Below, piece after piece: positions 8,854-35,623 of a stretch of 64,000 bases of DNA (positions are counted from its first letter, which is position 1; each line of letters starts with the position of its first letter). The stretch spans positions 62,001-126,000 of the forward strand of contig NZ_RJKN01000003.1 of assembly GCF_003751265.1 (NCBI RefSeq), in the 5' to 3' direction. The stretch comes from Pseudokineococcus lusitanus. GTDB lineage: Bacteria > Actinomycetota > Actinomycetes > Actinomycetales > Quadrisphaeraceae. The translations under genes were made by a program, and so were the position numbers. A model generated the notes under the pieces. The model saw nothing but the letters and a program-made list of their open reading frames with translations. It ran no database searches and was not told where the DNA came from.

Positions 8854-9019
8854 GGCCACCTCGGCCCCCTCCCGCCGTCCCCTCGCCGTCCCCTCCGGCA
8901 CATCGGCGCCCTCCTGCCACGGGACCGGCCTCCTGCCGGCACATCGGCGCCCTCCTGCCGTCGGGGTGGCCCTCTCCCGGCAGATCGGCGCTCTCCCGCC
9001 GTCGGGGCCCCCGGCGCCG
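8854..9019. repeat. 41-bp tandem repeat array in divergent promoter region
   Basis: The 14-base core GGCACATCGGCGCC starts at 8897 and 8938, and a variant GGCAGATCGGCGCT starts at 8979, so the period is exactly 41 bp. A more diverged copy (GGCCACCTCGGCCC) starts at 8854, 43 bp before the first. Each unit continues into a CTCC(T/C)(G/C)CC stretch. The array fills the gap between the divergent HAD and DUF418-like genes, just upstream of both -10 boxes. The core resembles the right arm of the palindromes at 10284 and 11301 (TGCCGTCACATCGACGC). No coding function: 41 is not a multiple of 3. Confidence 0.8.
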
Positions 9020-26829: not shown

Positions 26830-29800
26830 TCAGGCGCGCGGCTTCTCCCGCATCTCGTACGTCTCGATGACGTCGTCCGCCTTGACGTCGTTGAACGAGC
26901 CGAGGCCGATACCGCACTCGAAGCCCTCGCGGACCTCCGTGGCGTCGTCCTTGAACCGTCGCAGCGACTGGATGGACAGGTCGTTCGAGACCACGACGCC
27001 GTCGCGCAGGAGCCGCGCCCTGGCGTTGCGGCGGACCACGCCGGACCGCACGAGGCAGCCGGCGATGTTGCCGAACTTCGAGGAGCGGAACACCTCGCGG
27101 ATCTCGGCGGTGCCCAGCTGCACCTCCTCGTACTCCGGCTTGAGCATGCCCTTGAGCGACTGCTCGACCTCGTCGATCACCGCGTAGATGACCGAGTAGA
27201 ACCGCAGGTCGACGCCCTCGCGCTCGGCCAGGTCGGCGACGCGCTCGGCGGGCCGCACGTTGAAGCCGATGATGATGGCGTTGTCGACCGTGGCGAGGTT
27301 GACGTCGTTCTGGGTGATGGCGCCCACGCCGCGGTGGATGATCCGCAGCGCGACCTCGTCGCCGACGTCGATCTTGAGCAGCGCCTCCTCCAGCGCCTCG
27401 ACCGAGCCGGAGCCGTCGCCCTTGAGGATGAGGTTGAGGTTGTCGACCTTCCCCTCGGCCAGGGCGGCGGTGAGGTCCTCGAGGCTGATGCGCTTGCGGC
27501 GCTTGGCCAGGAGGGCGGCCCGCTCGCTCGCCTCGCGCCGCTCGGCGATCTGCCGGGCGGTGCGGTCGTCGGTCGCCACGAGGAACGTGTCGCCGGCGCC
27601 CGGGACCTGCGTGAGGCCCAGCACCTGCACGGGGCGGGACGGGCCCGCCTCGACGACGTTCTCGCCGCGCTCGTCGAGCATGGCGCGCACGCGGCCGTGC
27701 GCCCCGCCGGCGACGATCGCGTCGCCGACGCGCAGGGTGCCCGACTGCACGAGCACCGTGGCGACGGAGCCGCGGCCCTTGTCGAGGTGGCCCTCGATGG
27801 CGACGCCGCGCGCGTCCTTGTCGGGGTTGGCGCGCAGGTCGAGCGCCGCGTCCGCGGTGAGCAGGACGGCGTCGAGCAGCCCGTCGATGTTGATGCCCTC
27901 GCGGGCGGAGACCTCGACGAACATCGTGTCGCCGCCGTACTCCTCGGCCACGAGGTTGTACTCGGTGAGCTGCTGCTTGACCTTGTCCGGGTTGGCGCCG
28001 GCCTTGTCGATCTTGTTGACCGCCACGACGATCGGGACGCCGGCCGCCTGGGCGTGGTTGAGCGCCTCGATGGTCTGCGGCATCACGCCGTCGTCCGCCG
28101 CCACGACGAGCACGACGATGTCGGTGACGTCGGCACCACGGGCACGCATGGCCGTGAAGGCCTCGTGGCCCGGGGTGTCGATGAAGGTGATGGCCCGGTC
28201 GACGTCCTCGTGCTCGGTGACGACCTGGTAGGCGCCGATGGCCTGCGTGATGCCGCCGGCCTCGCCCGCCATGACGTCCGCGGAGCGGATGGCGTCGAGC
28301 AGGCGCGTCTTGCCGTGGTCGACGTGACCCATGACGGTCACGACCGGCGGGCGCGCCTCCAGGACGTCGTCGCCCTCGCCCTCGAGCTCGCCGGCCAGGT
28401 CGATGTCGAAGGACGCGAAGAGCTCGCGCTCCTCCTCCTCCGGCGAGACCAGCGAGATGTCGTAGCCGAGCTCGGAGCCGAGGAGCTTGAAGGTGTCCTC
28501 GTCGAGCGACTGCGTCGCCGTCGCCATCTCGCCCAGGTGGAACAGGACGGTGACGAGCGACGCCGGGTTGGCGTCGATGCGCTCCGCGAAGTCCGTCAGG
28601 GACGCGCCCTGGCGGATGCGGATGACGGTCGAGCCGTCGCCGCGGGGGACGCTGACGCCGCCGACCGACGGCGCCTGCATCGCCTCGTACTCCTGGCGCT
28701 TCGCGCGCTTGCTCTTGCGCCCGCGGACCGGACGGCCGCCGCTGCGGCCGAACGCGCCGGCGGTCGCACCGCGACCGCCGCCACCGCGGCCGCGGAAGCC
28801 GCCGCCGCCCGCACCGGGGGGACCCCCGGGGCCGCCGCCGCCGGGACGGCCGCCCGCACCGGGACGACCGCCCGCACCGGGACGACCGCCGCGCGCGGGG
28901 GCGCCGGGACGGCCGACCGTGGAGCGGCCCGGCATCATGCCGGGGTTCGGGCGGGGGCCGCCCGGGCCCGCCGCGCCACCGGGGCGCGGGGCCGGACGCG
29001 GGCCGCCGGGACGGTCGCCCGCCGCCGCGCCGGCGCCGGGGGCACCGCCGCCGGGACGGGGGCCGCCGCCGCGCGGCATCCCCTGGCTCGTCGCGAAGGG
29101 GTTGTTGCCCGGGCGGGGACCACCCGGACGCGGGGCACCACCGGGCGCGCCGGCGCCGGGGGCGCCGCCGGGACGGGGGGCACCGCTGCGGGCGGCGGGC
29201 TCGGCGCGCTCGGCGCCGCGCTCGGGAGCGCCCGCACCGGGACGCGCGCCGGGACGGGGCATGCCCTGGCTCGTCGCGAAGGGGTTGTTGCCCGGACGGG
29301 CGGGGCCGCCCGGACGGGCGCCGCGGTCACCGCGGTCACCGCGGTCGCCGCCCGGCGCGGGGCGGGTGCCCGGACGCTCGGGACGGTCGCCGCCGCGGGC
29401 CGCGGGGGCCTGCGGGGCGGGCGACGGGGCGGCCGGGGCGGGACGGGCCGGGCCCGGACGGGCGCCGGGCGTCGGCGCCGTGCGGGCGGCCGGGGCCGCG
29501 GGGACCTCGGCGGGCGCCGGGCGCGACGGCGCGGCGGGGGCGGCGGGGGCCGGTCGGGCGGGGCCCGGGGTCGGCGCGCCGCCGGCGGCGGGGGCCTGCG
29601 GCGCGGGGGCCGCGGGTGCCGCAGGGGTCGCCTGCGGGGCCGGCGCCGGGCGGGCCGGGCCGGGACGGGCTCCGGTACCGCGCGGGGCGGCCGGGGCGGG
29701 GCTGGGGGCGCTCGCGCCGCCGGCGGCGGGGAACGCGTCCTTCAGGCGTCGGACGACGGGAGCCTCGACGGTCGACGACGCCGACCGGACGAACTCGCCC

Positions 29801-29880
29801 ATCTCCTGGAGCTTGGCCAGCACGACCTTGCTCTCGACGCCGAGGTCCTTGGCGATCTCGTGGACCCGGGGCTTTGCCAC
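26830..29880 (-). CDS. infB: translation initiation factor IF-2
   Basis: A 1016-residue IF-2, the GTPase that brings initiator tRNA to the 30S subunit and drives subunit joining. Residues 1-50 are the IF2_N domain ([17 protein letters not shown]). Residues ~55-375 are a Pro/Ala/Gly/Arg-rich disordered linker in which [12 protein letters not shown] occurs twice. A second IF2_N domain follows, then the G domain with P-loop GHVDHGKT near residue 517, DTPGHEAFT and NKID. GTG 29880 is chosen since AGGAG lies four bases upstream and the family starts with AKPRV; a GTG seven codons upstream is rejected. Confidence 0.97.
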
Positions 29881-29912: not shown

Positions 29913-30274
29913 CGGGGCCTAGTGCTGCTGGGGGGTGCTCATCGCTGGGAGCTCATCGGGTGCCCATGAGATGCAGACCCGCTCTCGCTGTCGACGGTCG
30001 TCCCGGACCCGAGGCGCGGTGCGCCGCGGGCGTGCCGACCCGCGCGCGACCGTTACCGGTGCGACGTGCGGGAGGGTGCGGGCCGACCGGGGGTCCGGCG
30101 CGCACCGCCCCATGGTGCCACCTCGACGGGGGTGCGCGCGTCACCGCGGGTGCCGGCCCGCCGGTCGGGCGACGTCGTCGATCGCCCTGCGTCGTCGTCG
30201 GGTGCGCTGCGTGACGGAGGTGCGGCGCGCCCGGCGTCGACCCGCAGGCCCGCTCCGGGCCCGGCTCCCCCACC
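29913..30274. other. infB upstream region, no gene seen
   Basis: No ORF here has family likeness. There are two GATGAG copies and a CTCAT/ATGAG stem near 29939-29974 in the infB leader. The rest is ordinary GC-rich sequence leading into the 41-bp array. Confidence 0.5.
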
Positions 30275-30498
30275 CACTTCGCTGCCGAAGTCGATCCCAG
30301 GAGCCGCTCCCCAGTCACTTCGCTGCCGAAGTCGACCCCCGGGGCCCGCCCCCACCCACTTCGCTGCCGAAGTCGGCGCTGGGATGCTTTCCCGCTCCAC
30401 TTCGCTGCCGAAGTCGTGGTCCGGAGCCGTCCGCCACCCACGTCGCTGCCGACGTCGCCCCCCATGACCGCTCCCCACCCGCGTCGCTGCCGACGTCG
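30275..30498. repeat. six-unit 41-bp palindromic repeat array between ylxR and infB
   Basis: CACTTCGCTGCCGAAGTCG occurs at 30275, 30316, 30357 and 30398. Variants with ACGTCG/CGACGT in place of ACTTCG/CGAAGT occur at 30439 and 30480. Starts are exactly 41 bp apart throughout. Each unit is a six-base stem with a CTGC loop. The two variants change both arms together so pairing is kept. The 22-base intervals are diverged but keep a loose GGAGCCG...CTCCCCAC consensus. 41 is not divisible by three, so no repeat protein is encoded. Confidence 0.93.
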
Positions 30499-30530
30499 GT
30501 CCCCGGACCGGGCGCCGGGGCGCGGCAGGG

Positions 30531-30815
30531 CTACGGCGCGTCGCGCCCGTCGGCGGCGGCGAGGTGCTCGGCGACGGCGTCGGTCGCCAGCGGGCCCGGC
30601 ACCCGGAGGGCGCGGGGCAGCGCCCGGCGGCGCACCGCCAGGGCCAGGCAGGCGGGGTCGGCGTGGAGCCAGGCGCCGCGGCCCCCGAGGCGGCGGCGGA
30701 CGTCGGGGACGACGGCGTCCGTCCCCGCGAGGGCGAGGCGGAGCAGGCCGTCGGCCTCCGTCGTCGTCCGGCACCCGACGCACGTGCGCCGGGGCCGGTG
30801 CGCCGTGCCGGCCAC
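30531..30815 (-). CDS. ylxR: YlxR/DUF448 RNA-binding protein
   Basis: A 94-residue member of the YlxR family encoded between nusA and infB in most bacteria. It has the defining RTCVGCRTTTEADGLLRL start, GRGAWLHADPACLALAVRRRAL, and is basic. Family members bind RNA or affect RNase P or transcription; the exact role here is unknown. GTG 30815 lies five bases after the nusA stop. Confidence 0.93.
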   Translation of the reverse strand: MAGTAHRPRRTCVGCRTTTEADGLLRLALAGTDAVVPDVRRRLGGRGAWLHADPACLALAVRRRALPRALRVPGPLATDAVAEHLAAADGRDAP

Positions 30816-30820
30816 GTCCG

Positions 30821-32149
30821 TCAGCCGCGGGGGTCGCGGCGCGGGCGCTCGTCGCGGGGGCCGCCCGTGCGGGGCGCCCCCGTCCGGGGCCCGCCGGGGG
30901 CGCCGTACCCGCCGGTGCGCGGCGCGCCCGTCCGCGACCCGCCGGGGCCGCCCGTGCCGGTCCGCGGACCGCCCGCACGGCCCGGCGCCGGGCCGCGGCC
31001 CTCGCCGCCGCGCGGCGCGTCGGAGCGCGGCCCGCGCAGGGGCTCCCGGCGCGGCGCCGAGGGGTCGAGCGGCGGCGGCTCGGGGGCCGTGTCGCTGCGG
31101 ATGTCGATGCGCCAGCCGGTGAGCCGGGCGGCGAGGCGGGCGTTCTGCCCCTCCTTGCCGATGGCGAGCGAGAGCTGGTAGTCGGGGACGACGACGCGGC
31201 AGGAGCGCGAGGCGGCGTCGACGACCTCGACCGAGCTCACGCGGGCCGGGGACAGCGCCGCGGCGACGAAGGCCGCCGGGTCGTCCTCCCAGTCGACGAT
31301 GTCGATCTTCTCGTCGCGCAGCTCGGTCATGACGGCGCGCACGCGCTGCCCCATCGGCCCGATGCACGCGCCCTTGGGGTTGAGCCCCGGGACGGTCGAG
31401 CGGACGGCGACCTTGCTGCGGTGCCCGGCCTCGCGCGCCAGCGCCATGATCTCGACCGAGCCGTCGGCGATCTCGGGCACCTCGAGGGCGAAGAGCCGGC
31501 GGACGAGGTCGGGGTGCGTGCGCGACAGCGTGATCGACGGGCCGCGGAAGCCTCGCTTGACCTGCACGACGAGCGCGCGCACGCGCGAGCCGTGCGGGTA
31601 GCTCTCCCCCGGCACCTGCTCGGCCGGCGGCATGACGGCCTCGACGGGCCCGAGGTCCACGTGCACCATCGAGCGGTCCCGGCCCTGCTGGACGACGCCG
31701 GAGATGACGTCGCCCTCGCGGCCCTGGAACTCGCCGAGCACGGCCGCGTCCTCGGCGTCGCGCAGCTTCTGGAAGATCACCTGGCGCGCCGTCGTCGCGG
31801 CGACGCGGCCGAAGCCCGTCGGGGTGTCGTCGTACTCGCGGACCGGCGCGGGCGGCGCCGGCGGCGCGGCGGGCGCGGCGTCGTCCTCCGACGTCGTCGC
31901 GTCGGCGGGCCCCTCCTCGGCGCCGTCGGCCGGCGCGGGCCGTCCCTCGGACGCCTGCTCCGGCGTCTCCTGCGCCCAGACGGTGACCCGCCCGGACACG
32001 CGGTCGAGCTCCACGCGGGCGCGGCGGGCCGAGCCCTCCTCGCGCTGGTAGGCGAGGAGCATCGCCGTCTCCAGCGCCTCCACCAGCGTCTCCAGCGGCA
32101 TCTCCCGCTCGCGCGCCAGCATCCGCAGCGCGGCCATGTCGACGTCCAT
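30821..32149 (-). CDS. nusA: transcription termination/antitermination factor NusA
   Basis: A 442-residue NusA. The N-terminal RNAP-binding domain includes [31 protein letters not shown], interrupted by an acidic Ala/Pro insert near residues 65-100. S1 ([23 protein letters not shown]) and two KH domains ([45 protein letters not shown]) follow. From about residue 355 it ends in a Gly/Arg/Pro-rich disordered tail with repeats of [15 protein letters not shown] 32149 shares a base with the rimP stop. Confidence 0.96.
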
Positions 32150-35456: not shown

Positions 35457-35489
35457 CCCTGGGGGGTGACGTCCCGGCGCGCCTGCACG

Positions 35490-35593
35490 GTGAAGTCGAC
35501 GTCGACTTCACCTCCCGGCACCCCTCCGGGGTGAAGTAGACGTCGACTTCACCTCCCGGCACCCCTTGGGGGTGAAGTAGACGTCCACTTCAC
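35490..35593. repeat. three-unit 41-bp palindromic repeat array at convergent gene ends
   Basis: At 35490 the half-site GTGAAGTCGAC is followed directly by its exact reverse complement, a perfect 22-bp palindrome. Near-identical copies start at 35531 (one change) and 35572 (two changes), so the period is exactly 41 bp. The 19-base intervals are also alike (CTCCCGGCACCCC then TCCGGG or TTGGGG). It sits between the stops of the DUF4439-like and TauE/SafE genes, where it could end transcription from both sides. Confidence 0.92.
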
Positions 35594-35623
35594 GACCAGG
35601 CACCGCTGAGGGCCAGGGGGGCG

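Follow-up and report, generated by a model that had tools for sequence, protein, structure and literature searches.

The window analyzed here is a stretch of 64,000 nucleotides from Pseudokineococcus lusitanus. It contains an array of six palindromes flanked by two minus-strand genes, ylxR (which stops at 30531) and infB (which starts near 29880), and two further 41-bp arrays built from other palindromes. Genes were called with a simple, purpose-written codon-usage caller. The relevant features are as follows.

8895..9003, no strand: family C array, three CCGGCACATCGGCGCCCTCCTGCC-type units at 41 bp, between divergent genes
26830..29880, minus strand: infB, the gene downstream of the array
30275..30498, no strand: family A array, six 41-bp units, with the 16-bp cores given in the next three lines
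30276-30291, 30317-30332, 30358-30373, 30399-30414: cores of units 1-4, ACTTCGCTGCCGAAGT
30440-30455: core of unit 5, ACGTCGCTGCCGACGT
30481-30496: core of unit 6, GCGTCGCTGCCGACGT
30292..30480, no strand: spacers of this array, 25 bp from core to core
30531..30815, minus strand: ylxR, the gene upstream of the array, its stop 34 bp from the array
30821..32149, minus strand: nusA
35489..35594, no strand: family B array, three GGTGAAGTMGACGTCSACTTCACC units at 41 bp, between convergent genes

The palindromes beside infB are 19 bp each and start at 30275, 30316, 30357, 30398, 30439, and 30480, with every one of the five steps being exactly 41 bp. Units 1-4 are CACTTCGCTGCCGAAGTCG, with the arms ACTTCG/CGAAGT. 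In unit 5, CACGTCGCTGCCGACGTCG, both arms are altered to the CGTCG/CGACG type, and unit 6, CGCGTCGCTGCCGACGTCG, combines arms of this type with an A>G change at the first arm base. The intervals, 22 bp each, vary in sequence. The six palindromes, exact steps, and paired arm changes described at 30275-30498 in the initial annotation are thus confirmed. Tandem Repeats Finder gives the array the bounds 30268-30507, with a period of 41 and a score of 229, and the commonest 12-mer lags within the window are 41 and 82.

Immediately upstream of infB, at 29919-29967 on the minus strand, lie three mini-ORFs linked to one another through ATGA overlaps (products MGTR, MSSQR, and MSTPQQH, each ending at a stop). 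Their position is kept, and their sequence nearly so, in the same genus, in two further genera of this family, and in a single genome from a different family. This conservation suggests that the trio may exert leader-peptide control of infB. Our open-literature search found no report naming such a leader.

The 3.84-Mb genome contains 51 exact copies of the core of units 1-4 (arms ACTTCG and CGAAGT around CTGC; pattern ACTTCGNTGNCGAAGT), compared with 0 for a reversed-pattern control. Because of this count and the dominant 41 and 82 lags, the array is not a product of chance. Most of the exact cores sit 41 or 82 bp from the next one, nearly all belong to arrays whose spacings are multiples of 41 bp, and most larger contigs of the assembly carry some of them. 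We assembled 24 family A arrays comprising 114 units, all located between genes: 16 in tandem gaps, 3 in convergent gaps, 4 in divergent gaps, and 1 at a locus edge. Among the near steps (38-42 bp), 79 of 92 (86%) are exactly 41 bp, a count that includes four units at L248 built on a related palindrome. No family A singletons, which would be expected if single units insert, were seen. The array beside infB is therefore one of about two dozen family A copies scattered between genes, and not a local curiosity. End units of the arrays often seem to read ACGTCG..CGACGT and inner units ACTTCG..CGAAGT (for example, at L004, L011, L236, and L237).

The comparison of orthologous gaps bears on a role tied to infB, which the initial annotation had raised. 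The ylxR-infB gap measures 662 bp here and only 410 and 387 bp in two species of the same genus (G002 and G003), both of which lack the array. Arrays are likewise absent at the orthologues of C3:3030 and L020 in G002, of L053 in G003, and of the family C site (window 8895) in both species. At the convergent gap at 35.5 kb, the array of G001 and G002 belongs to a different palindrome family (GGGGCGAGTCGTCGCCTGTTCGCCC, with a step of about 41-42 bp), and G003 has no array. Array presence is lineage-specific at five of the six orthologous gaps tested. Judged from these comparisons, the array beside infB is best read as a lineage-specific insertion and not as an infB regulator; the same arrays stand beside other genes elsewhere, including divergent ones. 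The initial annotation had also reasoned that an array both missing from sisters and unique in its genome, with no transcript change and no bound protein, would be a chance local duplication. It is indeed missing from the infB site in the sister species, but it is far from unique in this genome. Overall, the earlier interpretation is partly supported.

The palindrome is equally alike within and between family A loci (identity 0.90 and 0.91, respectively), whereas the similarity of the spacer's inner 21 bp is local (0.56 within loci, 0.39 between loci, and 0.31 when shuffled). The palindrome is therefore constrained genome-wide, and the likeness of spacers within arrays implies that local duplication multiplies units. 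The earlier statement that the array is not plain tandem duplication consequently stands only in part: duplication does add units, yet this does not account for the fact that only the palindrome is constant between loci. Spacer indels are rare, which argues no more than moderately for selection on length. When all family A arrays are considered, a weak dyad (a G-rich stretch, then a C-rich one) is seen in the spacer at the half-period of 20.5 bp, and the palindrome is flanked by CG followed by variable bases without consensus.

Arm positions 3 and 14 covary across the 114 units (T-A 64, G-C 23, T-C 11, and G-A 4; Fisher p = 8e-9). Together with a genome-wide constraint that spares the spacer, this supports the earlier proposal of selection on the palindrome or on a dyad-binding protein. 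Arm changes short of full Watson-Crick swaps comprise 55 mismatches and 7 G.T wobbles in the same units, the opposite of the tolerance of an RNA stem, and 108 of the 114 have a CTGC or GCAG tetraloop. Both features favor a reading of the palindrome as double-stranded DNA rather than as an RNA stem. An action through RNA, as tandem terminators or 3'-end-protecting hairpins after genes, is in our estimate improbable. It would fit the tandem contexts, where arrays usually start about 20-60 bp past the upstream stop codon, and the enrichment of arrays in convergent gaps (14/109 vs 29/727, p = 5e-4). Array transcripts also fold better than shuffled sequences (z of -3.2 and -7.6), as expected for any palindrome array. 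However, no T-tract or terminator-like site was found after the hairpins, and unlike intrinsic terminators, the arrays are not confined to gene 3' ends, since the 4 divergent arrays of the 24 lie at least 88 bp from both gene starts. Tandem or I-shaped actinobacterial terminators are serial hairpins just past stop codons. The present arrays differ from these in occurring also between divergent genes, in lacking wobble tolerance, and in having a conserved loop and an exact step. A search of Rfam returned no family match; the only hits were two microRNA models below threshold.

The core is asymmetric and faces inward, the left-hand units reading CTGC and the right-hand ones GCAG. The first orientation switch is '><' in each of the 14 mixed arrays (p = 1.2e-4). 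At L014, the core flips while the spacer orientation is unchanged; flips therefore arise within the palindrome itself, with template switching at a quasi-palindrome as one possible route. We found no rule relating core direction to transcription in family A arrays. Another alternative is a neutral minisatellite, in which slippage or unequal crossing-over would multiply the 41-bp unit and template switching would generate the arm covariation. The likeness of spacers within arrays agrees with this scheme, and both the core flips and the paired arm changes could be template-switching products. We nevertheless consider it very improbable, being disfavored already by the equal identity of the palindrome within and between loci, and further by the non-random core polarity and by a 41-42 bp step common to different families (see below). 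Evenly spaced intergenic repeats are also a property of CRISPR and of mycobacterial MIRU/VNTR minisatellites. Unlike in CRISPR, the spacers here are related within arrays, and the loop and arms vary; unlike in minisatellites, the whole unit is not conserved between loci.

Closer parallels exist among dispersed bacterial palindromes. As described in two reports (PMC2817692; PMC3116915), REP/BIME/REPIN elements with their RAYT (TnpA-REP) are short intergenic palindromes present in many copies near gene 3' ends, forming inverted pairs and ordered tandem clusters, with several families per genome. Family A is likewise a short, many-copy, intergenic palindrome, and its units pair in inverted orientation. 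It differs in having neither a RAYT nor a GTAG tag. In P. fluorescens SBW25, the REP step is family-specific, at 71 and 110 bp (PMC3116915), in contrast to the step shared by the families described here. CGTC-tagged palindromic repeats are RAYT-independent, often form head-to-head dimers, and have been reported in five phyla, Actinobacteria not among them (PMC3733652). The palindromes studied here resemble them in lacking a dedicated RAYT transposase but not in their flanks, where neither a GTAG nor a CGTC tag was found at the palindrome end. Three candidate mobilizers were rejected. The RAYT domain Y1_Tnp (PF01797) is present in 0 of 19 genomes (this one and 18 relatives), compared with 5 of 14 control genomes; no reverse transcriptase was found in this genome, and an IS110 recombinase gave only a sub-cut-off match in it. 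Our searches thus yielded neither a mobilizing enzyme nor a binding protein, and the open literature provided no description of a 41-bp palindrome lattice.

Sampling of the genome and its relatives extended the picture beyond family A. In unbiased samples (664 kb, about 17% of the genome), repetition at 41-42 bp is also found for the palindromes GAACAGGCGCCTGTTC, GAAGTCGACGTCGACTTC, CGGCACTTCGGCGCCCATCTGCCG, and GCGACGTGNGGCCATGNCGC. Relatives in the same family carry different palindromes with the same step. When the best lag among 24-66 was determined for intergenic gaps, it was 41-42 in 12 of the 16 repeat-bearing gaps of this genome (G000), 9 of 21 in G002, 4 of 6 in G011, 3 of 5 in G010, 2 of 10 in G006, and 1 of 13 in G003, a member of the same genus with hardly any 41-bp signal. 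The other sampled actinobacteria gave 0 of 32, and shuffled sequences approximately 0. Dyad-pair statistics computed genome-wide without gene masking were too noisy; a first dyad-filtered scan of named actinobacterial loci returned mostly coding repeats and, when restricted to gaps, no peak at 41-42 bp. In a class-wide pattern search of 395 genomes, family A-like arrays occurred elsewhere only in G034, from another family, where CGTGCACTTCGGATCCGAAGTGCACG recurs every 42 bp and one arm shows the same T/G variation. Some of the palindrome families look related: A and B have CGACTTC in common, and families of this genome and of G002 have CGAACAGGCG. The common period may therefore be partly inherited from one ancestral array. 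At L023 (contig C4, near 236046), a GAACAGGCGCCTGTTC palindrome lies exactly 41 bp beyond four family A units, in register. Such register between unlike families was rejected as a general rule, with one clear case in 50 array ends.

Palindromes with other spacings were also encountered. Three intergenic loci of G010 (L262, L263, and L266) carry a different dyad, GTGATCATGG, at 31-bp spacing, about three helical turns. An intergenic gap of Saccharopolyspora indica (L202:4525) contains a pair of GTCAATTTCGTACGAAATTGAC palindromes with a spacing of 38 bp, which may be a similar element in a different taxonomic order.

The step common to unlike palindromes and several genera speaks for another explanation, in which the palindromes are sites of a host chromosome-organizing or insulating protein. 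Dimers forming a filament or lattice at four-turn spacing would mark gene ends, and the sites would be placed by selection and not by mobility. The spread of sites over most larger contigs and the enrichment in convergent gaps agree with this, as does the gap at 35.5 kb, where G000, G001, and G002 all carry arrays, with different palindromes. We regard it as rather unlikely, given the lineage-specific presence at five of six gaps and the fact that palindromes diverge even between members of a single genus; sites of a conserved chromosome protein do not usually behave in this way.

We propose instead, at about an even chance of being right, that these are dispersed, lineage-specific, intergenic palindrome arrays of REP/BIME-like character, without a RAYT, read by a dimeric protein and grown locally from a convergent seed. 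A seed, probably a convergent pair ('> <'), would reach an intergenic site, and the array would then lengthen through local duplication of the 41-bp unit. A sequence-specific dimeric protein would read the 16-20 bp palindrome as double-stranded DNA and thereby keep it constant, contacting two ACKTCG half-sites and the asymmetric CTGC center. The step of 41-42 bp, about four helical turns, may set neighboring dimers on one face. Within this proposal, the dispersal, the constrained palindrome, the covariation, the polarity, the step common to several families, and the lineage-specific presence are observed, and the protein, the seed, and helical phasing as the cause of the 41-bp step are inferred. 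It is also conceivable, if unlikely, that we are observing a fast-evolving DNA-organizing system of one actinobacterial family. In that case, paralogous dimeric proteins would occupy species-specific palindromes set four helical turns apart and build short lattices, chiefly in the gaps between gene ends. From species to species, one site sequence would give way to another, but the step and, in some cases, the position would be kept.

The results point to a repeat system that has not been described before and is probably read by a DNA-binding protein; they do not point to control of infB. Intergenic palindromes in bacteria are usually put down to RAYT transposases or terminators. Here, with neither in evidence, several families share a 41-42 bp step across genera, and the palindrome clearly evolves at a different rate from the spacer. 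This makes a concrete search for the palindrome-reading protein possible. The question of whether REP-like repeats are parasites or architecture thus becomes testable in a RAYT-less system.
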